This document shows positions 33,275 to 57,891 of a DNA stretch of 64,000 bases, in pieces. The stretch is taken from assembly GCA_002082585.1 (NCBI GenBank), contig CP020563.1, positions 3,590,001 to 3,654,000 of the forward strand, written 5' to 3'. The notes below the pieces were generated by a model. The model worked only from the letters and a program-made list of their open reading frames with translations, was not told the origin of the DNA and did not search any database. This stretch comes from Kitasatospora albolonga. Its GTDB lineage: Bacteria > Actinomycetota > Actinomycetes > Streptomycetales > Streptomycetaceae. Position 1 is the first letter of the stretch, and each line of letters opens with the position of its first letter. A program made the position numbers and the translations under genes.

Positions 33275-33448
33275 CTACCGCTTCTCGAGCCCCACCGGAA
33301 CGGCCTGCCGCAACCGGGCACACCGGGGACACCGGATCAACCGCCCCGGCCCGATCCGGTCGGCCCCGAGCTGCTGCATCGGGAACGACGAGGTAGCGAA
33401 AACGTGCCCTGCGGCACAGCGGACGACGGTGCGCTCCATCGACTCCAT
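33275..33448 (-). CDS. Small zinc-ribbon-like protein
   Basis: 57 aa: MESMERTVVRCAAGHVFATS, then PMQQLGADRIGPGRLIRCPR and CARLRQAV. Cys11-X3-His15 with Cys40-X2-Cys43 makes a plausible zinc ribbon. The ATG at 33448 has an AAGGGA ribosome site. The open frame can be extended upstream across the tRNA gene, but that extension is antisense tRNA sequence and not real. Small proteins of this kind are common in Streptomyces with unknown role. The rest of the gap to the tRNA gene is non-coding. Confidence 0.65.
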   Translation of the reverse strand: MESMERTVVRCAAGHVFATSSFPMQQLGADRIGPGRLIRCPRCARLRQAVPVGLEKR

Positions 33449-33684
33449 CAAGTCCCTTCCCCAACCACATATGGACGAGAAAGCCACATTAGGGGATGAA
33501 CAGGACGCCACTCCACACGGCACTCCGACCCCCCACGCTACGCCCCCAACTCCCGCCCACCACACCAGCGTCCACCCCGCCCGCCCCGGCGGGCACACAC
33601 GGAAGAGGCCCCACGGCTCATCCACCGGGGGCCTGACATGGGGTACAGTGTGTGACGATGCAGCGCCGATCATCGGTGCGCTTC

Positions 33685-33758
33685 GCGGGTGTAGTTTAAT
33701 GGTAGAACATGAGCTTCCCAAGCTCAGAGCGCGAGTTCGATTCTCGTCACCCGCTCCA
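33685..33758 (+). tRNA. tRNA-Gly (anticodon CCC), with encoded CCA
   Basis: Acceptor GCGGGTG pairs with CACCCGC before discriminator T and CCA. The D-arm is GTTTAATGGTAGAAC. The anticodon stem TGAGC/GCTCA holds the loop TTCCCAA, giving anticodon CCC. The T-arm is CGAGT-TCGATTC-TCG. Its 3' 44 bp (from the anticodon loop to CCA) is repeated three more times downstream, so the gene is an integration site. The intact gene lies at the left end of the island stack. Confidence 0.95.
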
Positions 33759-34233
33759 CGACTGAGGCCCAGGTCATCGACCCGGGCCTTGTTTGTTGTC
33801 CGGACCTGTCTACGTACTCCTCCCTGACCGCAACCGGGAGAGAGCATGCCCAACCGGCAGGTCGTACCGGTCCTTGTCCTGCTCCCAGTAGGCGAGCACC
33901 CGAGCCGTGGCTTCGGCCATGTCCGTGGGCAGGTCAGCCGCGCGGAGCGTATCGGCGACCTCTTCCATCTCGGGCGCCCAGCGCCAGGCTCGGGCTGCCA
34001 CTCTCGGTAGATACTCCGGGTCGGAGAGGATCGCGGAGATCATGATCTCGGCTTCGGCTGTGAGCTGATCACCGACTCCGTGGGCGTCGGCGAGCGCGTG
34101 AGCGACGCCGGCGAGGGTGCGGGCGGCCTTCTGGTAGCTGGCGAAGGCCATCTTCAGAGCGGAAGCGGAACCGGGTGTGTCCCCGGCCCGGCATACGTGC
34201 AGCGCAGAGCCCGTGAAGAGCGAAGCCACCAGC
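33715..34233. repeat. 519-bp long direct repeat, copy 1 (tRNA 3' end plus dehydrogenase 3' part)
   Basis: This stretch, from the tRNA-Gly anticodon loop through the tRNA terminator and into the last two-fifths of the dehydrogenase gene, recurs at 43967-44485 with a constant offset of 10252 bp and only about a dozen and a half substitutions by eye. It indicates that two related elements entered the same tRNA gene, or that one element end was duplicated. Confidence 0.92.
33765..33789 (+). terminator. Terminator of the tRNA-Gly gene
   Basis: AGGCCC (33765-33770) pairs with GGGCCT (33784-33789), followed by a T-rich TGTTTGTTGT tract, a classical intrinsic terminator. It is duplicated with the attachment repeats. 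Confidence 0.75.
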
Positions 34234-34652
34234 TCGACGGCAGAGTCGGCCCCTGCGAGATAGAGCCGTGTGGCACGCCCCTTGCCCGGCGGCTGACCGA
34301 AAACGGCACCGTCGACGACTGCGGAGCCGGGGCGGGTCTCGTCAGCGATGCGCCGTACGCGTTGAGGGCTGATGGCGTTGACATCGACGTACACCCCCGC
34401 GAAGCCGTGCGCGGCCACCGCCGCCGCGACGCCCTCCGCCGCCTGTGGTGGGCAGACCGAGAGAACGACCGCGCTTCGGGACAGCGCTTCCGCGAGCGAG
34501 TCGTACGCCGTGGCACCGGCTTCCCTCCCGCGGAGCCAGGTGTTCTCACTGCGTCCCTTGGTCACCGACAGCGCCTCATGGCCGCCGGCCACGAGCTCGG
34601 CGGTGATCGCCGCGCCCATGGTTCCAGGGTGGAGGACGGTCACGGTGATCAC
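33810..34652 (-). CDS. NAD(P)-binding dehydrogenase of the 6-phosphogluconate/3-hydroxyisobutyrate family
   Basis: 280 aa. A Rossmann start, VTVLHPGTMGAAITAELVAG, is followed by VLSVCPPQAAEGVAAAVA, VYVDVNAISPQ, VVDGAVFGQPP and a helical C-terminal domain with ASALKMAFASYQKAARTLAG, the position of the usual catalytic lysine (ALKMAFASYQK). The C-terminal half resembles the DUF1932-type variants. The substrate is unknown. It is the first gene of island 1, oriented toward the tRNA gene. Its 3' part is duplicated at 44062-44485. The start shown fits the Rossmann motif. Confidence 0.8.
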   Translation of the reverse strand: MITVTVLHPGTMGAAITAELVAGGHEALSVTKGRSENTWLRGREAGATAYDSLAEALSRSAVVLSVCPPQAAEGVAAAVAAHGFAGVYVDVNAISPQRVRRIADETRPGSAVVDGAVFGQPPGKGRATRLYLAGADSAVELVASLFTGSALHVCRAGDTPGSASALKMAFASYQKAARTLAGVAHALADAHGVGDQLTAEAEIMISAILSDPEYLPRVAARAWRWAPEMEEVADTLRAADLPTDMAEATARVLAYWEQDKDRYDLPVGHALSRLRSGRST

Positions 34653-34943
34653 TGGCTGCCTCCGGCGGTGCGCGACGGGGAAAGTTCCTCACCCCCATGA
34701 TCCGCTGTCGTTCGGCACCGGCGGCTTCGGAATCAATGCCTGACGGCCGTCTGGGCACTGATGGCGGACAGAGGTGCCTCCGGTCTCGGACTCGCCGTTC
34801 AGGGCGGTACACGGGCCGCGGCCCCGACGGTCCTTGCAGCTCGTCTCACGCTGAAGCCGCGTCATGGGTACCGTGCAGGGACGAACTCTGTGCGGACAGA
34901 CCGGCGGCCGCGCCGGATCGTCCGGCGGCCGGGAGGTGTCCTG

Positions 34944-36173
34944 ATGCTGGAGGAAGCCGAGGAGATCGGCAAGCGCGCTCGCAGGGCGAGGCTTCGGCTG
35001 GGCATGCCGCAGGCCGACCTGGCGACGGCCCTCGGGAAGTCGCAGGGCTGGGTGTCGAAGATGGAGCGTGGACTGATCGAGCTGGACCGGGTCGGGCTGC
35101 TCAACCAGGTGGCCGCGGAGCTGCACGTCCATCCGAACGACCTGATCGGACGCCCGTACAGCAGCTCCCCCGACGGCAGCCAGTGGCAGATCGCCGCTTC
35201 GTCGATCCTGCGCGAGCTACGTCGCTACGACCTCGTTCCCGTCTTCGACGGGGTTCCCCGACCGGCCTCACAGCTATGGCGTGAGGTGACCCGGCTGCAC
35301 CGCCTGCGGGACACCGCCTCCAACGTCGCGATCCTCCGAGTTCTCCCGGACCTGTTCCGGGAAGCGCGCGCTCTGGCGGAGGACTCGGACGGGCACGAGC
35401 GGGAGGAGGCGTACGCCGTCTACGCCGTGTGCTGCAAGTTCGCGCACACCGCCGCGCACGCCCTCGGACACCCGGAGCTGGTGGCCATGGCGTGCGAACG
35501 GGCCGCGTGGTCAGCCAGGTTGTCGGGAGACCCGGTGCTGCCTGCCGTCGCCGACTGGATGCGCGTCTGGGACATGTGGGCGACGGCTGACTGGGCCGAC
35601 GCTCTGACCCTCTCGGACAAGGCGATCGCCTCGGTGCAACAGCCGTACGAGCACGGTGATCCGCTGGCCGTACGGGCTTGGGGCACGCTGCAGCTTCGAG
35701 CGGCCATCTCCGCCGCTCGGGCCAACCGTCCAGCGGAAGCGGAGGACCGGATCGGACACGCGAAGGACGCGGCGGAACGCATGGACGCGTACGTCGGCGC
35801 ACCGGTGTACGACCGGCATTCGCTGACATTCTCCGCCGGGAACGTGCAGATCCACGCGATCAGCGTGGCTCTGGAAATGGGCAAGCAGGGCAAAGCTCTG
35901 GAGATAAACCGCCGCACCAGCCCGAGCCTGGTCGGGGCACTGCCCAACTCACGTCAGGGCCACCACCACATGGACGTGGCGCGGGCCTGGCTGTGGGACG
36001 GAAACCGGGCAAAGGCCCTCACCGAGCTGGAGACGGCTGAGCGGATCGCGCCGCAGCTTGTACGGAACCATCCCATCGCCCGTTCAACGCTTCGCAGCAT
36101 CGTCTACGCGGAACGAGCAGCCACGAGGGAGAAGCTGCGGTACATGTCCGACCGCTTTCACCTGGACGGATAG
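34944..36173 (+). CDS. XRE-family regulator with helical repeat (TPR-like) C-terminus
   Basis: 409 aa. The helix-turn-helix is at about 5-60: IGKRARRARLRLGMPQADLA, ALGKSQGWVSKMERGLIELD. A long alpha-helical region follows (about 75-400) with repeated A/L/E/R patterns such as LAEDSDGHEREEAYAVYAVC, ALTLSDKAIASVQQPYEHGD and RAWLWDGNRAKALTELETAE, suggesting TPR-like repeats that bind a peptide or other ligand. The ATG at 34944 has a GGGAGG ribosome site. This protein type is widespread in Streptomyces accessory DNA. It is followed by two small genes likely in the same transcript and may regulate the island's SIR2-like module. Confidence 0.85.
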   Translation: MLEEAEEIGKRARRARLRLGMPQADLATALGKSQGWVSKMERGLIELDRVGLLNQVAAELHVHPNDLIGRPYSSSPDGSQWQIAASSILRELRRYDLVPVFDGVPRPASQLWREVTRLHRLRDTASNVAILRVLPDLFREARALAEDSDGHEREEAYAVYAVCCKFAHTAAHALGHPELVAMACERAAWSARLSGDPVLPAVADWMRVWDMWATADWADALTLSDKAIASVQQPYEHGDPLAVRAWGTLQLRAAISAARANRPAEAEDRIGHAKDAAERMDAYVGAPVYDRHSLTFSAGNVQIHAISVALEMGKQGKALEINRRTSPSLVGALPNSRQGHHHMDVARAWLWDGNRAKALTELETAERIAPQLVRNHPIARSTLRSIVYAERAATREKLRYMSDRFHLDG

Positions 36174-36228
36174 GGGTCGTATTCCTCCGGCTCATATTCG
36201 AGACTCGTCCTGTCCCTGACTTCGGGGC

Positions 36229-36675
36229 ATGACGCGACGACGTTCTTCTCATCTTCCTTCGCAGGGGACCGAGTTAGGTACGGCGGCACCTTTCCGCCCA
36301 CTGCTCGGCGACCTCGCCACGGACAGCGCTCGCGATGGCCGTGTGGGTGTCGTAGTCGCTCTCCCTGGTGAGGGCTCTGCGACGACGTACCACCTGCGTC
36401 CGCCTGGGGGCGGGGCCCCCTGGTCCGCGCCCGCCGACGGAACGACGCTCCGTCCCGTGCCGGTGAGGGCCACCCACGCCACGCTCTCGGCCGGACGGGA
36501 CGCGGTCTACGACGCGCGGGCCAGGCAGGGATCGGTTCCCATCGAGTTCCACTTGGATGACGGCTCGACCCTCGATGGCGCGCTCATCCTCACCTCTGTC
36601 GAGGTGGAGTGGCTGCACCAGCAGACCAGCCGCCTCGTCGACGCACACGGACGGGCCCTCGGCGGCACCCCGTGA
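36229..36675 (+). CDS. Uncharacterised small protein
   Basis: 148 aa, cytoplasmic. The central sequence RVGVVVALPGEGSATTYHLR, PPGGGAPWSAP and PIEFHLDDGSTLDGALILTS suggests a compact beta-rich fold; it ends VEVEWLHQQTSRLVDAHGRA. I know no named domain. It lies between the XRE regulator and a small membrane protein whose GTG overlaps its stop by 4 nt, so the two are coupled. Confidence 0.65.
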   Translation: MTRRRSSHLPSQGTELGTAAPFRPLLGDLATDSARDGRVGVVVALPGEGSATTYHLRPPGGGAPWSAPADGTTLRPVPVRATHATLSAGRDAVYDARARQGSVPIEFHLDDGSTLDGALILTSVEVEWLHQQTSRLVDAHGRALGGTP

Positions 36676-36881
36676 CCGGGCCTCGGCGACGCCACGCCCG
36701 AAAAGCCGCGCCGCGCTCTGTACGCCCCGAAGGCGGAGGCATCGCGCTCACGCTTCTGGCGGTCGCCGGCCTGGTGGGCCCGGCCTGGGCACTGCGTGAG
36801 CAGGCCGGGCCGCTCCTCAACGGCCTCGGTCACCAGCCCGCCGCCGTCTCAACGGACGCGAGCCCGCCCTCCGACCGCTGA
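36672..36881 (+). CDS. Small single-span membrane protein
   Basis: 69 aa, GTG start overlapping the previous stop (GTGA). It has a basic N-terminus (TGPRRRHARKAAPRSVRPEG), one hydrophobic helix GGIALTLLAVAGLVGPAWAL, then a short polar tail ending ASPPSDR. By the positive-inside rule the tail is outside. It probably functions with the coupled upstream protein; the role is unknown. Confidence 0.6.
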   Translation: MTGPRRRHARKAAPRSVRPEGGGIALTLLAVAGLVGPAWALREQAGPLLNGLGHQPAAVSTDASPPSDR

Positions 36882-36978
36882 CTCCGCTCCGCTGTCCGGG
36901 TCGTTCACGCCACCTTCCCGGCCAACGGAGCCTGCCATGCACCCGGAACATCCAGGCGTGATTCTCCAGGGAGAGATC

Positions 36979-38211
36979 ATGGACATCCCGTACATCGTCA
37001 TCGACCAGCTCACCCCCGACCAACAGCAGGTCTGGAAGACCTACTTCGGCGACGCCGACCGACCCCGCTACATCGAGGAAGGCATCTGGCGCCGTACGCA
37101 GGAGAAGGCCACGGCCGAACAGAGCGGCTGGACGGCCGCCGACGACGCCCGGCGGCGGATCATCCACTACCGCTACCGGTACGGCCTGGTCCCCACCACC
37201 GCCGCGCCGGCCATCGGCCTGACCGACCTGTACCTCTACCACTCCGCTACCGCTCCAGCGGATGAGATCGACGCGCACCACGACGCCCTGTGGGACTCGC
37301 TCGCCACCGGCGGCTGGAAGGAGGCTCCTGGCGGATTCTTATGGACACGCCGGGATCTGAAGTGCCGGATCACCGAGCACGACGCCCACCCCCAGGACGC
37401 GGCGGCGGGCCGTACCCTCCCCGTCGGCTACCGGAGCCTGGACGTGCAGATCGCCTCGGTGTCCTACGCACCGCCGCCCGCTGTCCGACAGCTGCCGTGG
37501 AACGTCCTCTCCACCGGGATCAGATGCAAGGACCGCCCCGGTACGCCGACCCGCGTCCCGGACCTGTCCGTCCTCGCGGACCTCCTGCCCTTCCAGGTGG
37601 AGATCGGCTGCGGTACGTCGGTAGAGGCAGGTATTCCGCCCCTGCACCGGCTCCACGAGATCTACCGGGTCACCGACCGCCAGGGTCACGAGCCGCGAGA
37701 GCACCGCTTCACCCTCTCCCCGACCGTGGACACGCTCCTCCACGAGGTGCTGACAGAGCCGGAGGAGAAGACGGCGGAGTTCGTGGAGATGTTCCGCGCC
37801 TGCTTCCTGGCCGAACCGACTCCGGCGATGTGGGCGCTGAAGGAACTGAAGGACGCCGGTCACCTCGTCGGCCCGGTCATCACCAACAACTTCGACGTGC
37901 TCGCGGCGCGCGCCGGGCTCGACGAGTGCTTCATGCGCCGCTACGACCAGGCCGTACCCGACGTCGAGTGGGTGGACGGCGCCAAGGCCCTCCTCGTCGT
38001 CGGCCTGCACGCCGACCGACGCAAGGTCCAGGCACGCGCCCGCGCTCGCGGCATGCAGGTCGTCTACCTGGACCCGGAGGGCTTCTGGCGCGACGGCCAG
38101 TTCATGCCCTACCCGCTGGAAGGGCCCCAGGATGGCGACCTGGTGTGCCGGGCGACCGCCGCCGAGGCACTGCCAACCCTCGTCAACCTGCTCAAGCAGC
38201 ACGCTGGTTGA
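36979..38211 (+). CDS. SIR2-like NAD-binding domain protein
   Basis: 410 aa, cytoplasmic. The N-terminal half (1-200) is unfamiliar, with DIPYIVIDQLTPDQQQVWKT and LTDLYLYHSATAPADEIDAH. From residue 210 it has GCGTSVEAGIPPL, like the GAGxSxxSGIPxFR motif of sirtuins. It then has LVGPVITNNFDVLAARAGLD (TxNxD motif) and a late ALLVVGLHADRRKVQARARA with VVYLDPEG, as in the SIR2 fold. The catalytic His of deacetylases is not obvious. SIR2-like domains in bacterial defence systems often degrade NAD+, but no recognised partner is adjacent. ATG at 36979 with GGGAGA upstream. Two nucleotide-related genes, both broken, follow. Confidence 0.65.
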   Translation: MDIPYIVIDQLTPDQQQVWKTYFGDADRPRYIEEGIWRRTQEKATAEQSGWTAADDARRRIIHYRYRYGLVPTTAAPAIGLTDLYLYHSATAPADEIDAHHDALWDSLATGGWKEAPGGFLWTRRDLKCRITEHDAHPQDAAAGRTLPVGYRSLDVQIASVSYAPPPAVRQLPWNVLSTGIRCKDRPGTPTRVPDLSVLADLLPFQVEIGCGTSVEAGIPPLHRLHEIYRVTDRQGHEPREHRFTLSPTVDTLLHEVLTEPEEKTAEFVEMFRACFLAEPTPAMWALKELKDAGHLVGPVITNNFDVLAARAGLDECFMRRYDQAVPDVEWVDGAKALLVVGLHADRRKVQARARARGMQVVYLDPEGFWRDGQFMPYPLEGPQDGDLVCRATAAEALPTLVNLLKQHAG

Positions 38212-38319
38212 GCCACCTGCACGAAGAGGGCCGCGCCGGGTGTTGGCGCTAGCGTGACGCACCCGGCCGACCCGGACTCCCCTGGGCGGGCGAGAGGCAA
38301 GGAAAGGAGCGTCGACCCC

Positions 38320-39626
38320 ATGCGCGTATCCGTCATCGGCTGTGGTCACCTGGGCATCCCCCACGCCGCTGCCATGGCCGAGATCGGCCACGAGGTCATC
38401 GGCGTGGACCTGGACCAGGCGAAGATCGACCGCCTCAACATGGGCGAGTGCCCCATCTACGAGGACGGCCTGCCCGAACTCCTCAGCACCCACACCGCCA
38501 CTGGACGGCTGCGGTTCACCACCAGCCTCGTAGAGGCGGCCGAGTTCGCCGACATCCACTTCCTCGCCGTGGGCACGCCGATCGACGCGGACGGGCGGAG
38601 CTATGACACCGGACAGGTCTTCGGCGCAGCCCGCGCCCTGGCCCCGCACCTGACCCGCCCCACGGTCGTCGTCGGCAAGTCCACGGTCACCGTCGGGACC
38701 TCCCGCGACCTGGGCGCTCTTCTCGCCCGGCTCTCCCCGGCCGGTGAGGACGTGGAGGTCGTCTGGAACCCCGAGTTCCTGCGCGAGGGCCACGCCATCG
38801 ACGACACCCTGCGCCCCGACCGCATCGTTGTCGGCGTCCCCTCGGCCCGCGCCGAGGACGCGGTACGCGAGGTCTACGCACCCCTCCTGGCGAACGGCAT
38901 CCCGCTGTTCGTGACCGACCCCGCCACCGCCGAACTCATCAAGGGCGCCGCCAACGCCTACCTCGGCATGAAGATCTCCTTCATTAACGGCGTCGCCGAC
39001 ATGTGCACCGCCGCCGGAGCCGACGTCCAGCAGCTCACCGAGGCCATCGGCCTGGCGGCGGCCTGAACGCCGGCCCCGGCTACGGCGGCGGCTGCCTCCC
39101 GAAGGACGTCCGCGCCTTCACCGCCTCCGCCCGCACCCTGGGCGCCACCGAGGCAGCAACCATGCTGCGCGCGGCTGAGGAGGTCAACGAGTCCCGACCC
39201 GCCGCCGCGCTGAGGCTCATCGAACAGGCGCTCGGCCGACCCGTCGACGGCGTACGCATCACCGTCTGGGGCGCTTCCTTCAAGGCCGGTACCGACGACG
39301 TCCGCGAATCCCCGGCCCTGGCGATCGCCGCGCTCATGCACCAGCGCGGCGCGACCGTCACCGTCCACGACCCGCACGCCGTCCCCACAGCACTGCGCCG
39401 CCACCCCGAACTCGACTACTGCGAAACCCCCGAAGACTCCGTCGAGGCGGCGGAGCTGATCGTCCTGGCCACCGAATGGCCCCACTTCCGCGAGGCCGAC
39501 CCCAAGGCCCTCGCCCCACTGGTCGCGGACCAAGTCCTCGTCGACCTCCGCAACCTCATCGACGCCGACGCCTGGCGCATGGCCGGATGGACCGTACGCC
39601 AGCTCGGACGACCCGCACAGGAATAG
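38320..39626 (+). pseudogene. UDP-glucose/GDP-mannose dehydrogenase-family gene, broken by a deletion/frameshift
   Basis: The first piece (38320-39066) has the Rossmann start RVSVIGCGHLGIPHAAAMAE, EDGLPELL, FLAVGTPIDADGRSYDTGQV and VWNPEFLREGHAIDDT, and ends TEAIGLAAA. The second piece, in another frame to 39626, begins GGLNAGPGYGGGCLPKDVRA with the catalytic Cys, and continues WGASFKAGTDDVRESPALAI and LATEWPHFREADP. At 39050-39066 a few codons normally joining the parts (AIGL-D-x-R-I-G-x-G) are missing and the frame is lost. Intact enzymes oxidise UDP-sugars or GDP-mannose to uronic acids. As assembled it should be non-functional. Confidence 0.85.
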
Positions 39627-39652
39627 CCGAACCCATCGATCGGAGGTCCGAC

Positions 39653-39984
39653 GTGGACACCCTGTGGGACAACATCGAGAAGCTCTCCGCCATCTGCCGA
39701 GCAGCCGGCGCCCACCTCCCCGACGAGGAACTCAAAGCCCTCCAGGTCGGCAAGGTCGCCGAGGAAGCCGGCGAGGCCATGCACGCCCTCCACGGCCTGA
39801 AGGGCCTCACCACCTGCGGCGACGACCACGACTGGTCCGAGGGGTCCAGAACGACCTGGTCGGCGCCGTCATCGCCGCCCTCCTGGCAATGCACTACATC
39901 GACCCCACAGGCGCCCGCGCCACCTTCGACGAGATCATCCACCGCCGGACGCGAAGGGGCCGCGAGGCCGCTGCGGCGGCCTGA
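39653..39984 (+). pseudogene. MazG-like nucleotide pyrophosphohydrolase gene, frameshifted
   Basis: Starts GTG 39653 with a GGAGG ribosome site: VDTLWDNIEKLSAICRAAGA, then KVAEEAGEAMHALHGLKGLT with the E-E-x-x-E metal motif of MazG-like all-alpha NTP pyrophosphatases, then DDHDWSE. At about 39840 (CCGAGGGGTCCAG) the frame shifts. The other frame continues VQNDLVGAVIAALLAMHYID and DEIIHRRT, restoring the typical second helix with its N-D-x-x-x motif. The break is in a run of four G. It is directly behind the broken dehydrogenase gene, so this pair is degraded together, or is mis-sequenced. Confidence 0.75.
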
Positions 39985-40172
39985 CAACCTCCGGACCCAC
40001 CGTCGACCGCGCCCGTGGGCGCGGTCGACCACCATGTCGGCACGAGCCCATGGCATCACTTCGTCCTGGCGCGGAAGAATCTGGTGGTGGATTGGTCAGG
40101 TCACAGGGCGGCTGGTCGTCCCTGGAACGGTTGTAACCGTACGGAGCCATTCCCTTACGCCCTACCTGCTCC

Positions 40173-40178
40173 TATGAT
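40173..40178 (+). promoter_or_regulatory. Candidate -10 box giving a leaderless transcript
   Basis: TATGAT lies so that a start point 7 bp downstream would be the A of the ATG at 40185, and no ribosome site precedes that ATG. This suggests a leaderless mRNA, a frequent arrangement in actinobacteria. No good -35 box is visible, so this is tentative. Confidence 0.4.
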
Positions 40179-40184
40179 CGCAAC

Positions 40185-40742
40185 ATGTTGGGGGCAGGCG
40201 ATTGCACAGACGAAGTCGCAGAGAAGATCTTGAGTGCGGCCGTAAACGCGCAGCTCAATGCCTCCATCCAGTGGAAGTCAAAGGGCGTGCGTAAGGACGG
40301 CAGGCCAGCACAGCTCGAAGGTAATGCGCCCGTGCGAAGCGATCTGGCTGACCGATTTGATCTCATCTTTCGCATCAAAGTCGACTTGGCATGGGAATAC
40401 ACCCTGATCTTGCGGCACCTTCCCAGCGGTGTGAACATTCGGCGGCTGGATGTGAGAGGTACGCACAGGGACCGGGCTGGTGAGGACTATATTTGCCGCA
40501 CCCACAAACATCGTTGGAGCGAAGCTCGAGATAACAAGGATGTCTATGAGCCGACGGACATCCGCCACGATCCAGCAGTACCGTCACCCGCATCGCTCGA
40601 GGTCCTCGATGAGGAGTACCGTCGAGTTCTGACCGATTTTATGGGTGAGTGCAACATCTCCCTTGGGGCCGGGTACAACTGGACCAGCCCCCCAGCGCCA
40701 CCCCAGACGCTCCCGCTAGAGGGATTGGAGGAGTACCCGTGA
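40185..40742 (+). CDS. DUF6978-like protein, first gene of a coupled pair
   Basis: 185 aa, cytoplasmic, from AT-richer DNA than the core. AEKILSAAVNAQLNASIQWK, RFDLIFRIKVDLAWEYTLIL, VNIRRLDVRGTHRD and ICRTHKHRW resemble the proteins placed in DUF6978, which often precede DUF1828 proteins; this is from memory and tentative. The stop overlaps the GTG of the next gene (GTGA). Such pairs occur in mobile DNA and may act as a toxin-antitoxin or phage-defence module, but no activity is known to me. Confidence 0.55.
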   Translation: MLGAGDCTDEVAEKILSAAVNAQLNASIQWKSKGVRKDGRPAQLEGNAPVRSDLADRFDLIFRIKVDLAWEYTLILRHLPSGVNIRRLDVRGTHRDRAGEDYICRTHKHRWSEARDNKDVYEPTDIRHDPAVPSPASLEVLDEEYRRVLTDFMGECNISLGAGYNWTSPPAPPQTLPLEGLEEYP

Positions 40743-41527
40743 TCCGGGACCACCTACTACCCTCCGACGTTCGCGACCAGCTTCCGGGGTGGTCAATAGC
40801 TCCTGGTGGACGGCCAGGAACTGTCGCGATCACTGGTGGACTGTTCCTCAGCGACGGCGACGGTGTCACTGTGCTGCTCAGGGTGGTCGGTCAAGAAGTC
40901 CTGGCTAGCGACGCCGGCGTAGCTGCTATGCGGTTGTCGGACGCCGGGGTCGATCTAGGAGCCGGCCGCGCCAGCAAAGCGTGGGCTGAGATCCTGGATG
41001 GTTACCATCTCAAAGAGATCCATGGGCGCATCACAGGTCGGCGCTCCATCCAGTGTGCGGGGGCCCTAGTAGCCGACATCGCAGGCGCTGTCCTATCAGT
41101 GGACAGCCTGAAGTGGCTAGCCCAAGGTGGACGGGAGAGCCCTCTGGAGAGGTCCCTGTACGCCTTCCTCAGCTCGGCACACCTTGAGTTCCAGAAACGC
41201 CCCTCGGTACGGCTCCCTCGAGGTGGGCAGGTACGTCCTACCGCGAGAGTAAGCGCGCCGAAGCGCGAAGTCCTCGTGCAGGCGGCTAGCAGCAAGCAAG
41301 CAGCGGAGCATGCACTCGTTCTGGTCCAACAGCTCGCTCGCGCCAGCTACTCAACGAAACAGAGGTTCGTCCTGCTCAGCGGCCGTGCCGATGAGTGGAG
41401 TCCAGACCAGTTGGATCTTCTGGCCGACAACGCCCCAGTAGGATTCGCAACCGACATGCGAATGGTCGATCGCTTCCTTAAGGAGTCGAAGGCACCACCG
41501 CGTCTTTGGGCTCCGGCCAACGACTGA
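40739..41527 (+). CDS. DUF1828-like protein, second gene of the pair
   Basis: 262 aa. The N-terminal half (AITGGLFLSDGDGVTVLLRV, EVLASDAGVAAMRLSDAGVD, ILDGYHLKEIHGRITGR) fits the DUF1828 pattern of a two-layer alpha/beta domain. The C-terminal half is helical with KREVLVQAASSKQAAEHALV and ends with QRFVLLSGRADEWSPDQLDL. The function is unknown; related genes occur in phage and island DNA. GTG start coupled to the upstream stop. Island location and pairing suggest a selfish or defence module. Confidence 0.6.
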   Translation: MIRDHLLPSDVRDQLPGWSIAPGGRPGTVAITGGLFLSDGDGVTVLLRVVGQEVLASDAGVAAMRLSDAGVDLGAGRASKAWAEILDGYHLKEIHGRITGRRSIQCAGALVADIAGAVLSVDSLKWLAQGGRESPLERSLYAFLSSAHLEFQKRPSVRLPRGGQVRPTARVSAPKREVLVQAASSKQAAEHALVLVQQLARASYSTKQRFVLLSGRADEWSPDQLDLLADNAPVGFATDMRMVDRFLKESKAPPRLWAPAND

Positions 41528-42008
41528 CCGACCGATGCACCCGTCGCAGTGCCCCTGGCGGGTAGGGCGTGGCGCTGCGGTCAGTCACGGCTGCTGCAGT
41601 GAGCCCTAGATTCTCTTTGGCACCCATCTCCGCAGGCCAGTCCCCCTGTGAAGGCGCAAGGTTGCGTTGGTTCCTCGGCTCCAGAGGCGAGTTCAATTCT
41701 CGCCGCCAGCTCGTCGAGAGGCGCGGCTCTCTGCGGCGGAGACCGGCTCCTGCGAAGGGAGCGGTGCAGACGAAAACCCGAAGCCTTGACTTAGCTGAGC
41801 GCAGTCCATCCGGGCCCTCCTCCCCGTACCAGGCAAAGTAACGTCGAAGGTCGGTGCGCAGAAGGCCGACAGGACCACGACCCGCTCGACCGGTGGTCAG
41901 CTCCGGCGCCGCAATGCGGACCCGGATGGTCACCCCGTCCGGGTCTACGTCCTCACGCCAAAGCGCCTCTTGTTCCTCCGGTCGCATCGGCTCGTACACA
42001 GCGAGGGC
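41528..42008. other. Gene-poor stretch with a possible tRNA 3'-end-like remnant
   Basis: No convincing gene. A minus-strand frame (41999 down to about 41800, MRPEEQEALWREDVDPDGVT) could be a gene fragment, but it has no family match and runs into non-coding sequence. At about 41690-41710 GGCGAGTTCAATTCTCGCC has the form of a tRNA or tmRNA T-arm. No acceptor-CCA partner or full cloverleaf is present, so at most it is a relic of another integration event. Confidence 0.3.
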
Positions 42009-43415
42009 TCAGGCAAGCCAGCCCCGCAAGGCGAGCTCATCACCATTTTCGAGGGGGGCGATATCCGCAACACGCTTGATGATCAACGAGGAGTAAATTT
42101 CCTTGATTTTGGAGGCGACCAAGGGGCCGCGAAGATTCCTGGAGTGGAGTAGAGCTTTAGAGATATAATCCAAATTTGGGCGCGAAACAATAACGTCGAC
42201 AGTTTGAACTTGGCGCGCCCGTCGAGTCATATCATTGATACGAGAAAAATCCGACATCGGATCCGCCCAGTTCATTTCCTGAGAGGCAAGAGACAGCCTC
42301 TCATAAGCAGCGATCAATTGATCCCGCCCGATAAGGGGAAAGCTCTTATCGTTTTCCTTGAGAGCGAGTGCAACATCCGGGATACCCAAGGAAGATGCCG
42401 CTAGCCCCACTGCGGAAGATGCAACAAAATCTGCCGGGATAACGTAAGCGGGTGGCCGATCCGAAATAGTTACATCGGCCGATGATGCTCGCACGAGAGC
42501 TTTGAAAGACTCGAATCCAAACCACCCCTGACTCACTTCTTGGCCAAATTCCCGTTGGACCTCCCACGCCAGACTCGCTAGGTCCACAGGATGGTTCAGA
42601 CCGTCGAGGCGCTCACGCAGATAACGCATGGCTGCCTCTTTAGAACCGGCCTCATCACCAGCTCCTGACTCGACATCAAGCTGGCCTTCATCGACAATTT
42701 CGAAGTCAACTTTCTCCGACAGTTCCCCAACAGCCACACTTGACAACCTGTCGAGCTCCTCGCGTAGATCCTGTGCAATATCATCAACAGCGGCAAGCAG
42801 GTCAGCCATTCTTCTGCTGAGGGTCCTAACTAGAGCAGGCGGCTCACTTCCCGGCTTATAGGTATCTTCATGCGTAAGCTCTCCCCAACCGTCTTGAAGG
42901 AGAGTCCTGACTTGCAATTCACACGTCACGAGGTGCCATTCGACGCCCAACGAGACGGCCGTTTGCAAATTCACGTGCACGGCACGATAACCGGTCGCTT
43001 TAGGGGCGTTAGCGTAATCCTTCCACGACCCTTCCTCTTGAGCCAAAACAGATCCGACGACTCCGTCAGAAACGGGCAATGCTTTGATCAGGTCTCGCAC
43101 CCTGACAACATCCGATTGATTATTGCAGGTGATCCGAATGCCGACGAGATCATCGATGATCTCTGGAACTTCATCAAGCTGGTGAATCACATCTCGATAT
43201 TTCGGCAGATTAAGCTTCCGCCAAGTTCGCGCCTTACTTTTGACGCGCCCTCCCGTAATCCTGACGCGAGCCCCCTCCATTTCGCTCAACTTATCCTCAA
43301 AGTACTCAGACAGGACGCGCGTCGCAGCATCACGCGCAGTATCCAGATACTTCCTCTTGTGCGAGTCGTACCAGTCACTAAAAGCCTGGTAGGAAAATGG
43401 CAACTCATTCGACAT
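42009..43415 (-). CDS. RelA/SpoT-domain (p)ppGpp-synthetase-like protein fused to a LOTUS/OST-HTH-like domain
   Basis: 468 aa, start ATG 43415 with an AGGGGGG ribosome site. Residues about 45-190 form a RelA/SpoT nucleotidyltransferase domain: RVRITGGRVKSKARTWRKL, IIDDLVGIRITCNNQSDV (Asp89), APKATGYRAVHVNLQ (142-151), and CELQVRTLLQDGWGELTHED (Glu167). There is no HD hydrolase domain. About 262-330 resembles an OST-HTH/LOTUS winged helix (MRYLRERLDGLNHPVDLASL, GWFGFESFKALVRASSADVT). The C-terminus is unassigned. The gene is markedly AT-richer than its surroundings, a sign of recent transfer. Small alarmone synthetases fused to extra domains act as toxins or phage sensors (toxSAS, CapRel). That role is inferred from architecture and location. 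Confidence 0.75.
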   Translation of the reverse strand: MSNELPFSYQAFSDWYDSHKRKYLDTARDAATRVLSEYFEDKLSEMEGARVRITGGRVKSKARTWRKLNLPKYRDVIHQLDEVPEIIDDLVGIRITCNNQSDVVRVRDLIKALPVSDGVVGSVLAQEEGSWKDYANAPKATGYRAVHVNLQTAVSLGVEWHLVTCELQVRTLLQDGWGELTHEDTYKPGSEPPALVRTLSRRMADLLAAVDDIAQDLREELDRLSSVAVGELSEKVDFEIVDEGQLDVESGAGDEAGSKEAAMRYLRERLDGLNHPVDLASLAWEVQREFGQEVSQGWFGFESFKALVRASSADVTISDRPPAYVIPADFVASSAVGLAASSLGIPDVALALKENDKSFPLIGRDQLIAAYERLSLASQEMNWADPMSDFSRINDMTRRARQVQTVDVIVSRPNLDYISKALLHSRNLRGPLVASKIKEIYSSLIIKRVADIAPLENGDELALRGWLA

Positions 43416-43966
43416 CAGGACCCCCCTGGTTAATATTGGATCGAGCGCCTGCCAAAAGGATGCAGGATTGAATGAAAGCAATCCGAGATGGACGTAGATT
43501 ACACGAGGGCCGCCCCAGGTGTAGGCAGATTGACTCAATAAGTCGGCGGCACTTGACGGGTCACCCACCACCGCATGCACCGCAAGCGATACCCAAGATC
43601 CGATCGCGTCGCGACAGCCCTGTATGCGGTCAGCCAGTAAGCCAAGGGACACCGGATGTGCAGACTGGCACGAGGTTGCAAGGGCCGAGCACAGGCGAGG
43701 CCCCCCACCGCATGACGGCTCGCCCCGGAGCTCTTCGCGGAAGACCGCTACCGCTGGTCGTGCGGGTGAGCCTGCACTGACATCCACCGAAGTGCCCATG
43801 GGTGCGCACCGCGGCGGACATCCGAAGCGACAGCCCGTCGTGCCCCATCCATGCCCAGCCGAGCGGACACCAGCGGTCATGTACGGCGCCGGGCGGCCAT
43901 GCCAACCTCGCGCCTCTCAACCAAAATTGCAGGTCAGAGCGGACGAGACCGTTGATGAGCCGCTGA
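43416..43966. other. Non-coding right arm of island 1, carrying an element-end repeat
   Basis: No gene is supported; the open frame continuing from the RelA/SpoT gene has no ribosome site or family features. At 43840-43884 lies a segment (CCCCATCCATGCCCAG, then GAGCGGACACCAGCGGTC) that recurs before the third attachment copy at 46762-46806 and, shortened, at 45801-45830. In the first two cases it sits about 100 bp before the 44-bp tRNA repeat. This is probably the conserved end of the integrating elements, next to a lost integrase gene. Confidence 0.55.
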
Positions 43967-44485
43967 TTCCCAAGCTCAGAGCGCGAGTTCGATTCTCGTC
44001 ACCCGCTCCACGACTGAGGCCCAGGTCATCGACCCGGGCCTTGTTTGTTGTCCGGACCTGTCTACGTACTCCTCCCTGACCGCAACCGGGAGAGGGCATG
44101 CCCAACCGGCAGGTCGTACCGGTCCTTGTCCTGCTCCCAGTAGGCGAGCACCCGAGCCGTGGCTTCGGCCATGTCCGTGGGCAGGTCAGCCGCGCGGAGC
44201 GTATCGGCGACCTCTTCCATCTCGGGCGCCCAGCGCCAGGCCCTGGCTGCCACTCTCGGTAGACACTCCGGGTCGGAGAGGATCGCGGAGACCATGACCT
44301 CGGCTTCGGCCGTGAGCTGATCACCGACTCCATGGGCGTCGGCGAGCGCATGAGCGACGCCGGCGAGGGTGCGGGCGGCCTTCTGGTAGCTGGCAAAGGC
44401 CATCTTCAGAGCGGAAGCGGAACCGGGTGTGTCCCCGACCCGGCACACATGCAGCGCAGAGTCCGTGAACAGCGACGCCACCAGC
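43967..44485. repeat. 519-bp long direct repeat, copy 2 (island 1 right attachment site and start of island 2)
   Basis: It begins with the 44-bp tRNA-Gly 3' end (43967-44010, identical to 33715-33758), continues through the tRNA terminator and into the dehydrogenase 3' part, and stops abruptly at 44485 where Rhs-coding sequence begins. It differs from copy 1 by scattered substitutions, so it is not a recent exact duplication or an assembly artefact. Confidence 0.92.
44062..44485 (-). pseudogene. Truncated copy of the dehydrogenase gene (C-terminal part only)
   Basis: The frame is intact for about 140 residues (SLFTDSALHVCRVGDTPGSA, SALKMAFASYQKAARTLAGV and onward), nearly identical to the C-terminus of the dehydrogenase at 33810-34652. 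The Rossmann half is missing. It is replaced at 44486 by unrelated Rhs sequence on the other strand. It cannot bind NAD(P) and is a relic. Confidence 0.88.
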
Positions 44486-45071
44486 CCCACACTGTCACCC
44501 TGACCTGGGAGACCATCGGGGCATCCGCCCCGTGGCCCAGACGGAACGTCTCCTGGACGCGAAAGCCTCCCGGGAGGCGATCGACGAACGTTTCTTCGCC
44601 ATCGCCACCGACCTTGTGGGCTGCCCCACCGAACTCGTCGACGAGGCGGGTGCCCTTGCCTGGCACAGTCGGGCGGACTTGTGGGGTAAGACAGCCTGGG
44701 CGATGGGCAACACCGCCTACACGCCGCTACGGTTCCCGGGGCAGTACTTCGATCCCGAAACCGGCCTCCATGACAACCACCACCGTCACTATGATCCCGA
44801 GACCGCCCGCTATCTCACCCTGGCCCCTCTGGGTCTGACCCCCGCCCCCAATCCGTCCGCCTATGTCCGCAACCCTCATACCTGGGCGGACCCACTCGGA
44901 CTCGCTCCCGAATATCACGAGTTCCACTCCGTCCAGGATGCTGCCAACGCGACCCGCCTGCGAGGAGACGGAAAGCCTCACGACTTCGATTACATCCGAG
45001 ACCACACAGGGGTGGGTGACGAGCACTACTTCCACAGGCGAATATTCGGTCTTCTCAATTTCGGCGACTGA
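44486..45071 (+). pseudogene. Orphan Rhs C-terminal tip (core end plus putative toxin domain), 5'-truncated
   Basis: The frame opens inside Rhs repeat sequence: GDHRGIRPVAQTERL, CPTELVDEAGALAWHSRADL. It then has the Rhs-associated core FPGQYFDPETGLHDNHHRHY, DPETARYLTLAPLGL and NPHTWADPLGLAP, after which polymorphic toxins begin. The variable tip is about 55 residues (EYHEFHSVQDAANATRLRGD, GKPHDFDYIRDHTGVGDEHY, FHRRIFGLLNFGD). A GTG at 44532 could still start a 179-aa product, but the secretion/shell part is gone. Such displaced tips can re-attach to a full Rhs gene elsewhere by recombination. The tip's activity is unknown. Confidence 0.82.
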
Positions 45072-45079
45072 AGGAAATC

Positions 45080-45511
45080 ATGACCGGGGTATTCAAGTTC
45101 CGCTTCCGGGGTCCAGCGGGCGGAATCGCGGTTGACCTGCGAGCAGAAGCAACTGTGCTTGAGGGCGGGATTCCGCCGCACAGTATGCAGGTCTACAAAA
45201 ATATTTGGCTCGGCCTACCCGCATCCGGGATTCACTGGAAAGACGCCACCTGGCTGGCGCTCGGAGTTTCCATAAATGCTCACGCTCTGAGCGAACTCCT
45301 GCCCGACGGGATTTTCATTCACGCATCTTCACTCGACTACCCCCTGAGTGACTATCAGTCCGAGGCGGCGGCGTTGGCCATGGACGGGTGGCTTCATGAG
45401 CGATTTGATATCGAGAGTTCAGGCGCTACCGCCAGGTATGAGGTTTCGGAAGGCCAGTTCACATTTGCTTGGGGAGGAACTACCCACCCCTTCTCCGATG
45501 CGCCGAGCTGA
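45080..45511 (+). CDS. Putative immunity protein for the Rhs tip
   Basis: 143 aa starting 9 bp after the Rhs stop, the normal place of the cognate immunity gene. MTGVFKFRFRGPAGGIAVDL, GLPASGIHWKDATWLALGVS, INAHALSELLPDGIFIHASS and EGQFTFAWGGTTHPFSDAPS suggest a compact beta-rich cytosolic protein. A decayed relative of its C-terminal part is found at 54946-55069 in the bacteriocin region. Function is inferred from position only. Confidence 0.7.
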   Translation: MTGVFKFRFRGPAGGIAVDLRAEATVLEGGIPPHSMQVYKNIWLGLPASGIHWKDATWLALGVSINAHALSELLPDGIFIHASSLDYPLSDYQSEAAALAMDGWLHERFDIESSGATARYEVSEGQFTFAWGGTTHPFSDAPS

Positions 45512-45530
45512 AATCCTCTGACCGGCATCC

Positions 45531-45662
45531 TCAACGATCCGCATCACCGTCACACTTCCCAGTGATCAGGCCGCGAAGGCGCGCGAGCTCACAGACAACG
45601 TCTCCGGCTATATGGCGAAAGCCATAGCCCGGCCAGATGCGGCATCAGCATCTGGGCTACGA
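45531..45662 (+). pseudogene. Decayed copy of the island-3 antitoxin gene
   Basis: Translation from 45531 gives STIRITVTLPSDQAAKAREL, TDNVSGYMAKAIAR, matching TTRITVTLPSDQVAELRKLT, DNVSGYVAEAVAR of the antitoxin at 46073-46321. The start codon is lost (CATCCTCAACG), the sequence diverges after AIARP, and no toxin gene follows. It is a relic of the same module in island 2. Confidence 0.82.
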
Positions 45663-45843
45663 CACAGAACTGCGCCAATGCGCGGCATCCCACCACTCCG
45701 AGGACCAGCCGTCGTGATGCCGTGAAGGCCGGCGGCGGATTCGACTCCCGGCGGCCGAGAACCGGGCGCCTCCGGTGCTGGCGCCCGCTCTTCCCGCTCA
45801 TGGCCCATCCGTGCCCAGCGGAGCGGACAGCAAAAGCCGCTGA

Positions 45844-45887
45844 TTCCCAAGCTCAGAGAGCCAGTTCGATTCTCGGCACCCGCTCCT
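45844..45887. repeat. Degenerate third copy of the tRNA-Gly attachment repeat (island 2/3 boundary)
   Basis: TTCCCAAGCTCAGAGAGCCAG then TTCGATTCTCGGCACCCGCTCC matches the 44-bp tRNA end with a few substitutions, including the loss of the final A of CCA. It is preceded, after an internal deletion, by the element-end segment at 45801-45830. Confidence 0.85.
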
Positions 45888-46048
45888 TGATGAATACCTC
45901 GGTCAACGACCGGGGCCCTTCACTTGCCCTCCAGTGGCTCCGGCCCTCACTCCGCTGTGGACAACCGGAAGCGACCGCACCCATGCCTCCACCCAGAGCA
46001 TGCGGTCGCGGTCGCCAAGGCTAGGACTACTGACCCGGGCCACTGGAT

Positions 46049-46064
46049 GCATACTCCAGTATGC
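46049..46064. promoter_or_regulatory. Palindromic operator of the island-3 toxin-antitoxin module
   Basis: GCATACT-CC-AGTATGC is a perfect dyad ending 9 bp before the antitoxin start. It contains TATGCT, usable as a -10 box. Its position fits autorepression by the ribbon-helix-helix antitoxin. Confidence 0.7.
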
Positions 46065-46072
46065 TTGGTTAC

Positions 46073-46321
46073 ATGTCTTCAACGACTCGCATCACCGTCA
46101 CGCTCCCTAGCGACCAGGTGGCGGAGCTCCGCAAGCTCACGGACAACGTCTCCGGCTACGTGGCGGAAGCCGTAGCCCGCCAGATCCGGCACCAGCTCCT
46201 GGGCGACGACCTCCGCCGTCACGAGGAAGAGCACGGAGCCTTCAGCGACGAGGAGCTCGCCGAGGCCCGCGCTAAGATCTTCGGCTCCGCCGACACCTCC
46301 AAAGGCGCGGACGCCGCGTGA
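46073..46321 (+). CDS. Ribbon-helix-helix-type antitoxin
   Basis: 82 aa from ATG 46073 (an in-frame ATG at 46061 overlaps the operator and is less likely). The start SSTTRITVTLPSDQVAELRK fits a DNA-binding beta-strand plus helix of CopG/RHH antitoxins. A second helix, LTDNVSGYVAEAVARQIRHQ, and an acidic tail (RRHEEEHGAFSDEELAEARA) that would occupy the toxin follow. Its stop overlaps the toxin GTG by 4 nt. It should repress via the dyad just upstream and neutralise the PIN-domain partner. Confidence 0.85.
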   Translation: MSSTTRITVTLPSDQVAELRKLTDNVSGYVAEAVARQIRHQLLGDDLRRHEEEHGAFSDEELAEARAKIFGSADTSKGADAA

Positions 46322-46719
46322 GCGAGCGTGTCGAGACCGTCGTCCTGGATTCGGAAGGGCTCTCCGCCTGGATCGCGCAGGACCGCAAAATGCTCGCGAT
46401 GCTTCAGGTCTTCCACGACATGGGAGCCGACCTGGTCATCGGGGCCAACACCATCGTGGAAGTCAGCCACTCCCGCGCCAACATGCCCCGCCTGAACTGG
46501 GCCCTGTCCCGCGTCAAGGTGGAGCCCGTCACCGGACAAGCGGCAAAAGCAGCAGCGGAACTCCTCAAAGGTGCCGGACTGCACGGACACAAGTACGCCA
46601 TCGACGCCACAGTCGCCGAGGTCGCCCTCCGCCAGCCGAAACCCGTCGCCCTCCTCACCTCCGACAGCGACGACATGACCAAACTCTGCGGAAACCAAGT
46701 CCGCATCATCCCTCTCTGA
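46318..46719 (+). CDS. PIN-domain toxin (VapC-like ribonuclease)
   Basis: 133 aa. ETVVLDSEGLSAWIAQDRKM has the first acidic residue of the PIN active site, NTIVEVSHSRANMPRLNWAL the second, and YAIDATVAEVALRQPKPVAL with LLTSDSDDMTKLCGNQVRII the later ones (D-x-x-V and the SDxxD motif). PIN toxins cleave tRNA or rRNA. GTG start coupled to the antitoxin (GTGA). With the antitoxin it makes up nearly all of island 3, which suggests this TA unit is itself what is being inserted or is holding the remnant in place. Confidence 0.88.
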   Translation: MSERVETVVLDSEGLSAWIAQDRKMLAMLQVFHDMGADLVIGANTIVEVSHSRANMPRLNWALSRVKVEPVTGQAAKAAAELLKGAGLHGHKYAIDATVAEVALRQPKPVALLTSDSDDMTKLCGNQVRIIPL

Positions 46720-46887
46720 CCAGCCGGTGCGCCCGGAGCAGGCGTCGCACCGCCAGCTCTCGTGCCCCATCCGTGCCCAGCAGAGCGGACAACAGCGGTC
46801 AGGTACAGCCTCCAGAGACCATGGCGACCCCAGCTTCCCCGCAGGAAAGCACAGGTCAGAGCCCTCCGGAAGCTCAAGCACCGCTGA

Positions 46888-46931
46888 TTCCCAAGCTCAG
46901 AGCGCGAGTTCGGTTCTCGTCACCCGCTCCA
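46888..46931. repeat. Fourth copy of the tRNA-Gly 3' end: right end of the island stack
   Basis: TTCCCAAGCTCAGAGCGCGAG, TTCGGTTCTCGTCACCCGCTCCA matches the tRNA 3' end with one substitution in the T-loop. It is followed by CGGCTGAGGCC-CCGGTCATCGACCCGGGCCTT, a version of the tRNA terminator. Core-like DNA presumably resumes to the right. Confidence 0.9.
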
Positions 46932-47243
46932 CGGCTGAGGCCCCGGTCATCGACCCGGGCCTTGTTTGTTGGCGGGACCCGTCCAAGGCGCCGGGGGCTC
47001 GGCCGTGTACAGGAGCTCAGGTGCTTCTGGATGGTGAGATGTCCCTCACGCACAGCGCCCTCCAGTGCCGGGTCCTTCCGCGTCCGGCGAAGGGCACTCG
47101 CCCAGTACGGGGCCGTCAGTCGTTTCCGTCCACGTGATCTGTGTCGTGTGGCGCACTCGCTACTCGTGATGACGAACGGGCCTACGTCGTCCACGGCACC
47201 ATCACCGCAGCAGCAATCCGCTCAAGGCTTCGGCCATGATCCG
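46932..47243. other. Gene-free stretch right of the island stack
   Basis: Apart from the duplicated tRNA terminator (about 46936-46965) I see no gene. A minus-strand frame includes PYWASALRRTRKDPALEGAV, REGHLTIQKHL, which could be an eroded coding remnant, but its upstream part is antisense to the tRNA repeat. No integrase remnant is recognisable. Confidence 0.35.
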
Positions 47244-48568: not shown

Positions 48569-48640
48569 GGGCTTTCAGCTGCTGTCCAGCACGCGGAGCA
48601 GGCCCGCTGCCTGCGCGGTTTCGCGGTGTGGACCCAGCCT

Positions 48641-48705
48641 GCGGACCCGGTCGGCGGACCCGGTCAGCGGACCCGGTCAGCGGACCCAGCCTGCGGACGC
48701 GGCCG
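48641..48705. repeat. Five tandem copies of a 13-bp repeat (GCGGACCCGGTCA)
   Basis: Units start at 48641, 48654, 48667, 48680 and 48693, exactly 13 bp apart; the middle ones are identical and the last two diverge. The repeat lies in the 271-bp gap between divergent genes and is non-coding by my reading. Repeats of this length can vary in copy number and alter promoter spacing. Confidence 0.85.
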
Positions 48706-48830
48706 GCTGGGCCGGCGCCCGAACGGGGCTGTCCGCCCGGGCATCCCGTGGCCACGGCAGAGGACAGCGTGCGCCGGGTATTCGTGCTCCGGAGATAAAC
48801 CCCGTGTCGGTGCGGTGCGTGTCTTACTAG

Positions 48831-57890: not shown

Positions 57891-57891
57891 C

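Follow-up and report, generated by a model that had tools for sequence, protein, structure and literature searches.

A tRNA-Gly(CCC) array of core-bounded units in Kitasatospora albolonga: probable accretion of integrative elements and their decay to toxin–antitoxin cassettes

RESULTS

Attachment copies downstream of tRNA-Gly(CCC)

We examined a stretch of 64,000 nucleotides of Kitasatospora albolonga (contig CP020563.1, positions 3,590,001 to 3,654,000; hereafter the window), in which a tRNA-Gly(CCC) gene is followed by an array of small gene units separated by copies of the tRNA 3′ end. ARAGORN detected a single intact tRNA-Gly(CCC) in the window, and its last 44 bp served as the attachment core in our searches. 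Within the window the core recurred on the same strand at 33715 (0 mismatches), 43967 (0), 45844 (4) and 46888 (1), which agrees with the positions listed in an earlier note made from the sequence alone, where the copy at 45844 had been called degenerate. The next-best core-like stretch, at 41671, has 14 mismatches, and six first-order Markov resamples of the window contained no stretch with 14 or fewer mismatches to the core. A profile of right ends, built from 82 sites in other genomes with the window genome left out, re-found the known copies of the window and added one at 41574–41712. The window array has five cores and four units; the attachment copies and the longest repeat are as follows.

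33685..33758, plus strand: intact tRNA-Gly(CCC) (ARAGORN); its last 44 bp (33715–33758) are the attachment core
33715..34233, plus strand: core, terminator and 3′ half of a DUF1932 gene, 97% identical over 519 bp to 43967–44485
41574..41712, plus strand: fifth, decayed right end with core (nhmmer E = 8.7e-9; core-like stretch 41671–41714)
43836..44010, plus strand: right arm and core, attachment copy 2 (nhmmer 4e-41; core with 0 mismatches)
45797..45887, plus strand: shortened right arm and degenerate core, copy 3 (nhmmer 7.8e-4 and 3.1e-14; 4 mismatches)
46755..46931, plus strand: right arm and core, copy 4 (nhmmer 2.3e-44; core with 1 mismatch)

With the fifth copy at 41671, the units measure about 7.96, 2.30, 1.88 and 1.04 kb. 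The last two correspond to the units of 1.9 and 1.0 kb described previously, whereas the 10.3-kb unit placed before them is split by the decayed copy. Self-BLAST further revealed that the repeats exceed 44 bp and run beyond the tRNA into the terminator (46888–46983 is 94% identical to 33715–33810), and that the sequence preceding the copies is also common to them, as exemplified by 43801–44062 and 46726–46983 (79%). In the 8.03-Mb genome, only one further match to the tRNA region was found outside the array copies, and it was weak (73%, E = 6e-5). On the minus strand, mechanical open reading frames (ORFs) run through the tRNA core at 33275–33853 and 43917–44396; their peptides carry GAGDENRTRALSLG, and the ORFs are likely spurious.

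Gene content of the four units

The units carry the following genes and gene remains.

33810..34652, minus strand: DUF1932/NAD-binding oxidoreductase gene, left-end cargo of unit 1 (Pfam PF09130, 4.1e-17)
34761..36173, plus strand: helix-turn-helix protein (PF13560, 1.1e-6)
36796..38211, plus strand: protein with a weak SIR2-like domain (PF02146, 0.0046, below cut-off)
40185..41527, plus strand: two overlapping ORFs, candidate phage-defence pair PDC-M24A/PDC-M24B (PADLOC, 1e-8 and 1.6e-6)
41802..42005, minus strand: integrase relic (tblastn, 40% to residues 195–274 of the tRNA-Gly(CCC) integrase)
42009..43880, minus strand: RelA/SpoT-domain gene (PF04607, 4e-15; PADLOC PDC-S33, 1.8e-12)
44062..44490, minus strand: truncated second copy of the DUF1932 gene (self-BLAST, Pfam scan)
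44532..45071, plus strand: orphan RHS C-terminal tail of 179 amino acids (PF03527, 1.4e-7)
45080..45511, plus strand: small gene that follows the RHS tail and is, on its position alone, a putative immunity gene (protein 88% identical to that of a gene in unit 1 of relative G005)
45528..45663, plus strand: decayed start of a CcdA-like antitoxin gene (81% to 46076–46210)
46061..46321, plus strand: CcdA-like antitoxin of cassette A (PF07362, 1.3e-5, above cut-off)
46318..46719, plus strand: PIN-domain protein, predicted toxin of cassette A (PF01850, 7.3e-4, below the curated cut-off)

In a relative, G139, the DUF1932 and helix-turn-helix genes form a separate 2.8-kb core-bounded unit (unit 0), to which unit 1 of the window is 91.6% identical over 2.7 kb. 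This match stops at 36377, where the right arm of the G139 unit begins, and unit 1 is itself a fusion of units. The integrase relic adjoins the decayed fifth attachment copy, and in a whole-genome search it was matched at 42% over residues 183–283 with one stop. The upstream part of the RelA/SpoT ORF overlaps the right arm, so that its true start is probably lower. The RHS unit measures 6.9 kb in G005 and G139, with a 1588-amino-acid ORF in G005, and 1.88 kb in the window, a direct case of shrinkage by deletion. No Pfam family matched the product of 45080..45511. The two genes of cassette A overlap by 4 bp. The gene content of the last two units agrees with the earlier note: one has an RHS tail with a small gene behind it, the other a CcdA-like gene paired with a PIN gene, the PIN domain scoring below its cut-off.

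Pfam scans, a PF00589 search and tblastn with the cognate integrase (see below) found no intact integrase in the window array; the PF00589 search of the whole genome gave four matches, none inside the array. Among 20 window proteins scanned with Pfam, a subset of the ORFs, no transfer-gene family was found, and neither Pfam nor tblastn detected in the window array the set of integrase, replication and TraB/FtsK genes that marks an actinomycete integrative and conjugative element (AICE). The previous statement that no unit has an integrase therefore holds for intact genes but not for the relic at 41802–42005. A search for a conserved right-hand chromosomal boundary found none: nothing in the 37 kb that follow the last core of the window matched the corresponding 26 kb of the nearby relative G005 (threshold: high-scoring segment pairs >300 bp summing to >1.5 kb), so the variable region may continue beyond the last core (46983–64000).

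Two further observations concern the window only. A UDP-glucose/GDP-mannose dehydrogenase gene at 38254–39626 is split across two overlapping frames: one encodes the N-terminal domain and a portion of the central one, the other encodes the remainder. A cluster of repeats of 65–75% identity, about 3 kb long (18013–21210), is unrelated to the array.

An integrase family tied to the tRNA

In the relatives G036 and G002, an element resembling an integrative and conjugative element (ICE) adjoins the tRNA, and its integrase gene points at the tRNA, with its end some 50 bp beyond the tRNA. Behind the integrase lie RepSA-, SpdB- and FtsK/Tra-like ORFs, in G036 together with a GntR-type regulator (names other than the integrase were given to ORFs by eye rather than by a family search). 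We inspected the best 80 of 101 integrase loci found, all from named genomes and titled Streptomyces (78) or Saccharothrix (2). A core lay within 5 kb of the integrase relative in 76 of the 80 and within 600 bp in 64, 57 of which had an intact tRNA. Two of the four remaining loci are at a contig edge, and the other two, L195 and L199, have 5 kb of sequence with no core. The closest match of the integrase of G019 among these best 80 loci was that of Streptomyces microflavus (98%). The integrase family is tied to the tRNA-Gly(CCC) site, and we regard it as highly likely, as part of the accretion reading set out in the Discussion, that this tRNA is the attachment site of an AICE family.

The search for an integrase that uses the same core elsewhere in the window genome, proposed in the earlier note, turned up no close relative; the best near-full-length match had 23% identity, and such an integrase serving the array was set aside.

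Arrays across the genus

A degenerate core pattern, searched in 392 genomes of the genus, taken here to be Streptomyces, and counted wherever it occurred in a genome rather than only near the tRNA, was present in 391, and a reversed control pattern in none. Same-strand copies numbered two or more in 277 genomes, three or more in 151 and four or more in 80; the highest count was 13. A single copy was found in 103 genomes; this is no proof of an empty site, as G006 has one core copy yet carries an AICE integrase. The tRNA-Gly(CCC) site is an accretion hot spot across the genus. We saw neither a fixed arrangement nor a lack of empty or differently occupied sites, the two outcomes that had been named as counting against serial integration here: occupancy varies widely, down to the single-copy genomes.

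We examined 45 arrays with 125 core-bounded units. The sample is not random: 26 arrays (the window included) belong to chosen near relatives, and 19 more were picked for carrying cassette A. Several arrays end at a contig edge or at the limit of the fetched stretch, and five of the 44 tRNA-bearing arrays have no second core and thus no bounded first unit (G002 and G006 with a full integrase, G015, G031 and G379 with none). Integrases in the arrays were called by tblastn with the cognate integrase. This replaced a PF00589 survey of 25 relatives, and the statement derived from it, that arrays hold almost no integrase, was dropped, as reading of the arrays placed AICE integrases at the left end of the first unit.

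Of 39 tRNA-adjacent units, 13 contained a full cognate integrase, as did 1 of the 86 units farther out (p = 6e-7). Only integrase fragments were seen in 16 of the 125 units, and 111 had no full cognate integrase. Median unit sizes were 17.2 kb where an integrase was present, 5.2 kb where there was a fragment, and 3.2 kb where there was neither. Small units with other contents were also noted: unit 0 of G195 (L160) holds a Shedu SduA protein, and unit 0 of G227 (L138) an Ntox27 toxin with a DUF6193 gene behind it.

Minimal cassettes and their order

Three recurrent cassette families of toxin–antitoxin type, 1.0–1.35 kb long, have no integrase, carry a core and a conserved right arm, and occur in several species (genome counts refer to the 45 arrays). 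Cassette A, the CcdA-like/PIN pair, is a core-to-core unit of 0.98–1.07 kb in seven genomes and includes the last unit of the window. The same pair also closes larger units, one of them with a full integrase (G173), and in 18 of its 30 closest loci a core lies 148–190 bp downstream. Cassette B, of about 1.35 kb in six genomes, contains an AbiEii-type toxin (PF08843) and an upstream partner that matched no Pfam family. Cassette C, recognised by its Phd/YefM antitoxin (PF02604) alone, measures about 1.34 kb in five genomes, in one of them 1.57 kb. Of the loci fetched, 11 of 30 for B and 5 of 21 for C had a core no more than 200 bp away on each side. None of nine weaker or partial B homologues (L274–L282) had a core within 1.5 kb, and no core was found near the stronger B loci L262 (88%) and L270 (76%) or the strong C locus L287. 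Plasmid matches of the cassette came from 16 records; the best, on a linear plasmid, has the toxin–antitoxin (TA) pair amid other plasmid genes, and the second one examined, similar only near the two ends of the query, contained no tRNA-Gly.

The order of the units varies. Cassette B adjoins the tRNA in G005 and G077, and cassette C in G269. With R for the RHS unit and D for the DUF1932 unit, the orders are tRNA-B-C in G077, C then B in G203 and G081, B-A in G202 (D..B-A with further units in between), B-R-A in G005, D-B-R-A in G139 and D-R-A in the window. The chromosomal flanks of G005, G139 and G202 are 89.5–91.4% identical to that of the window; these genomes differ from the window and from one another in which whole D, B and R units they have. 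The comparison of this site suggested earlier, made here across relatives, shows different units and orders.

Such a picture recalls an integron-like process, in which minimal cassettes (a core, a TA or defence operon and one right arm) would be captured, lost and reordered in trans by the integrase of a passing AICE. The three integrase-less families of near-constant size, their positions beside the tRNA, the permuted orders and the lack of cores at all nine weaker or partial B homologues are in line with it. Two stronger B loci (L262, L270), however, likewise have no nearby core, loss of newer units could equally expose a cassette beside the tRNA, and the window genome contains no close integrase relative; no circle or insertion was seen. 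We consider this process possible but doubtful.

Cis-mobilisation fares better, although we put it somewhat short of an even chance. Here, cassettes would travel only within composites excised with an adjacent AICE, and units would later be lost by core–core recombination. In G143, G413, G228 and G019, a unit with a full integrase stands directly before a unit of 1.4–3.4 kb. In Frankia, tandem AICEs were shown to excise as a composite (PMC3218068), and cis-mobilisation is proposed for Streptomyces tandems of AICEs and defective AICEs (DAICEs; PMC9513070). Against this stand the permuted orders, which demand extra rearrangement, and the neighbours of one and the same cassette, which differ among species.

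Right and left arms of the cores

In the 130 bp upstream of the non-tRNA cores we found two GTGCC boxes, a GCGG..CGGTCA box and, some 40 bp from the core, CAGGTCAG. Scored by its first boxes, this right-arm motif was present at 108 of 126 non-tRNA cores versus 1% of shuffles. The exact motif occurred 18 times in 10 of 37 whole genomes, and a control pattern not at all. By hand comparison, 15 of the 18 occurrences sit 125–129 bp before a core copy; the other three, in G037, G001 and G005 (at 3889288, before a strongly degenerate core-like stretch only), do not. Single off-site right arms were noted at L304 (G005), ahead of a strongly degenerate core-like stretch, and at L306 (G007), ahead of a core copy that lies some 146 kb away from the tRNA. 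Inside the cassette families, conservation was higher in the motif than in the spacer (0.94 versus 0.67, 0.88 versus 0.54 and 0.82 versus 0.60; the motif score of cassette C comes from four of its five members). The boxes may represent arm sites of the integrase; conservation of the kind expected of a binding site would also suit integron-like movement. By eye, right arms seem swapped between families, those of the B units of G005 and G202 resembling that of the C unit of G029, and that of the G019 B unit resembling cassette A.

On the left side, a pair of GTGCC boxes was present at 26 of 44 tRNA cores, 17 of 126 internal cores and 2.7% of shuffles. No AICE-type left arm was read in the left ends of the window.

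It is extremely improbable that the repeats are selected tRNA fragments or chance matches rather than attachment sites. This explanation has nothing to draw on beyond the tRNA-like sequence itself, and it is at odds with copies that lie mostly on one strand, carry fixed arms, are linked to an integrase and come and go with whole units.

Cassette identity compared with the chromosomal flank

To look at horizontal spread, we set the identity of cassettes against that of the conserved chromosomal stretch upstream of the tRNA (the flank) in 41 genome pairs. Eleven of 52 cassette pairs had no flank value and were left out (in G227 the contig contains no tRNA), and flank identity was that of the best single BLAST segment, of about 1.05 to 1.62 kb. 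The cassette was more similar than the flank in 30 of the 41 pairs. For cassette B, identities were 93.5% versus 83.3% for the flank in G005/G019 and 94.8% versus 86.1% in G019/G202; for cassette C, 94.1% versus 87.6% in G203/G269; and for a 3.2-kb unit, 96.7% versus 86.2% in G190/G269.

The comparison bears on another explanation, that the units are dead, immobile relics whose order and copy number change through homologous recombination between attachment repeats and are otherwise inherited vertically. Several observations would fit: the fusion and the 519-bp duplication in the window, the 16 units with fragments as their only integrase sequence, right ends seemingly exchanged among cassette families, and a divergence of cassette A close to that of the flank. 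However, a unit cannot be inserted by homologous loss, some pairs in families B, C, E and G stand 6–10 points above their chromosomal flanks, and the right-arm motif has been retained at most non-tRNA cores. We therefore think it rather unlikely that the arrays consist of dead remnants.

DISCUSSION

Accretion and decay

The explanation that we find highly probable is accretion of AICEs at tRNA-Gly(CCC), followed by decay to units of the cis-mobilisable element (CIME) type and to minimal TA-type cassettes. An incoming AICE would recombine with the 44-bp tRNA 3′ end and restore the tRNA, and older elements would be pushed outward, so that the newest layer would lie beside the tRNA. Older units would then shed their integrase, left arm and transfer genes, whereas the core and the right arm of about 130 bp would stay, leaving cis-mobilisable-type units and minimal TA-type cassettes. 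In the window, this would have produced the fused unit (DUF1932, helix-turn-helix, SIR2-like and M24-type genes), the unit with the integrase relic and the RelA/SpoT gene, the orphan RHS tail and the CcdA-like/PIN cassette.

Common cores and arms, the linkage to an integrase, relics, the presence or absence of whole units and recurrent integrase-less cassettes are the observations behind accretion and decay. Recombination by the integrase, loss of transfer genes and an order that reflects age would account for them, together with mobilisation of cassettes by the integrase of another element. Serial integration with loss of mobility genes, one of the two possibilities raised in the earlier note, is well supported by ICE-like elements with an integrase at the tRNA in relatives, truncated integrases elsewhere and the relic in the window. 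The other possibility, cassettes moved by an integrase in trans, gains support: three recurrent integrase-less cassettes and their varying order agree with it, but cis-mobilisation and recombination between repeats remain as alternatives. Permuted order and recurrence speak for movement in trans and the missing left arm against it; movement by a borrowed integrase, in cis or in trans, is likely. Judging from known TA biology, the TA genes probably keep their unit from being lost.

Several results weigh against this explanation. In 11 of the 41 pairs the cassette was less similar than the flank. Cassette A exceeded the flank in 16 of 21 pairs, but by little (no more than 5.5 points), and minimal cassette A was the last detected unit in six of its seven genomes; small excess and last position together fit an old vertical inheritance of the window's cassette. 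Minimal cassettes were read without an AICE-like left arm and the left-side pair stands at only 17 of 126 internal cores, so the integrase may not move them. Finally, the fusion and the 519-bp duplication in the window show other recombination at work in the array as well.

Comparison with known systems

CIMEs and tandem accretion were reportedly described for ICESt1-related islands (said to be by Pavlovic, in 2004). As defined in PMC5704250, a CIME has no integration genes, lies between attachment repeats and stands in tandem with ICEs or derives from them. The array units resemble CIMEs in these respects. In the window array, no intact integrase or transfer-gene family was found within the scope of the searches given above, and derivation from an ICE by deletion is supported by the integrase relic, by the units with integrase fragments only and by the shortened RHS unit; as for the pair attL and attR, cores and right arms are present, and an AICE-type left arm was not read there. 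The arrays differ from CIMEs in that the number of cores reaches 13 within the genus, that a unit may consist of a single TA pair, and that the same minimal cassettes return in several species.

Accretion of AICEs is known as well: AICEs, defective AICEs and remnants have accreted at a tRNA-Arg in a Streptomyces population (PMC9513070), and tandem AICEs occur in Streptomyces avermitilis and Frankia (PMC3218068). In both those cases and ours, such elements appear stacked at one tRNA. The arrays described here lie at tRNA-Gly(CCC) instead, 111 of their 125 sampled units have no full cognate integrase, and recurrent TA cassettes are absent from the available parts of those accounts.

Sedentary chromosomal integrons consist of rows of small units, some of them TA pairs, that each end in a recombination site. 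The arrays share this outline, including the varying order. They differ in that a tRNA 3′ end accompanied by arm motifs serves as the site and that the integrase comes from AICEs at the same tRNA. No IntI-type integrase and no attC, the integron site that is recombined as a folded single strand, was identified here, although no search was aimed at either.

By title and opening of the abstract, we found no description of a tRNA-Gly(CCC) array in a literature search that covered subscription journals thinly and that variant spellings of tRNA-Gly may have escaped. CIMEs and accretion are known; genus-wide tRNA-Gly(CCC) arrays with recurrent integrase-less TA cassettes in permuted order were not found in the literature searched.

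Implications

If the cassettes do move, a tRNA 3′ end and a single arm some 130 bp long would suffice to mobilise a TA or defence operon. This would explain why TA and defence genes gather at tRNA loci with no visible mobility gene, and such units would escape searches keyed on an integrase. The layered arrays, found in most sampled genomes of the genus, also offer a readable and testable record of successive invasions.

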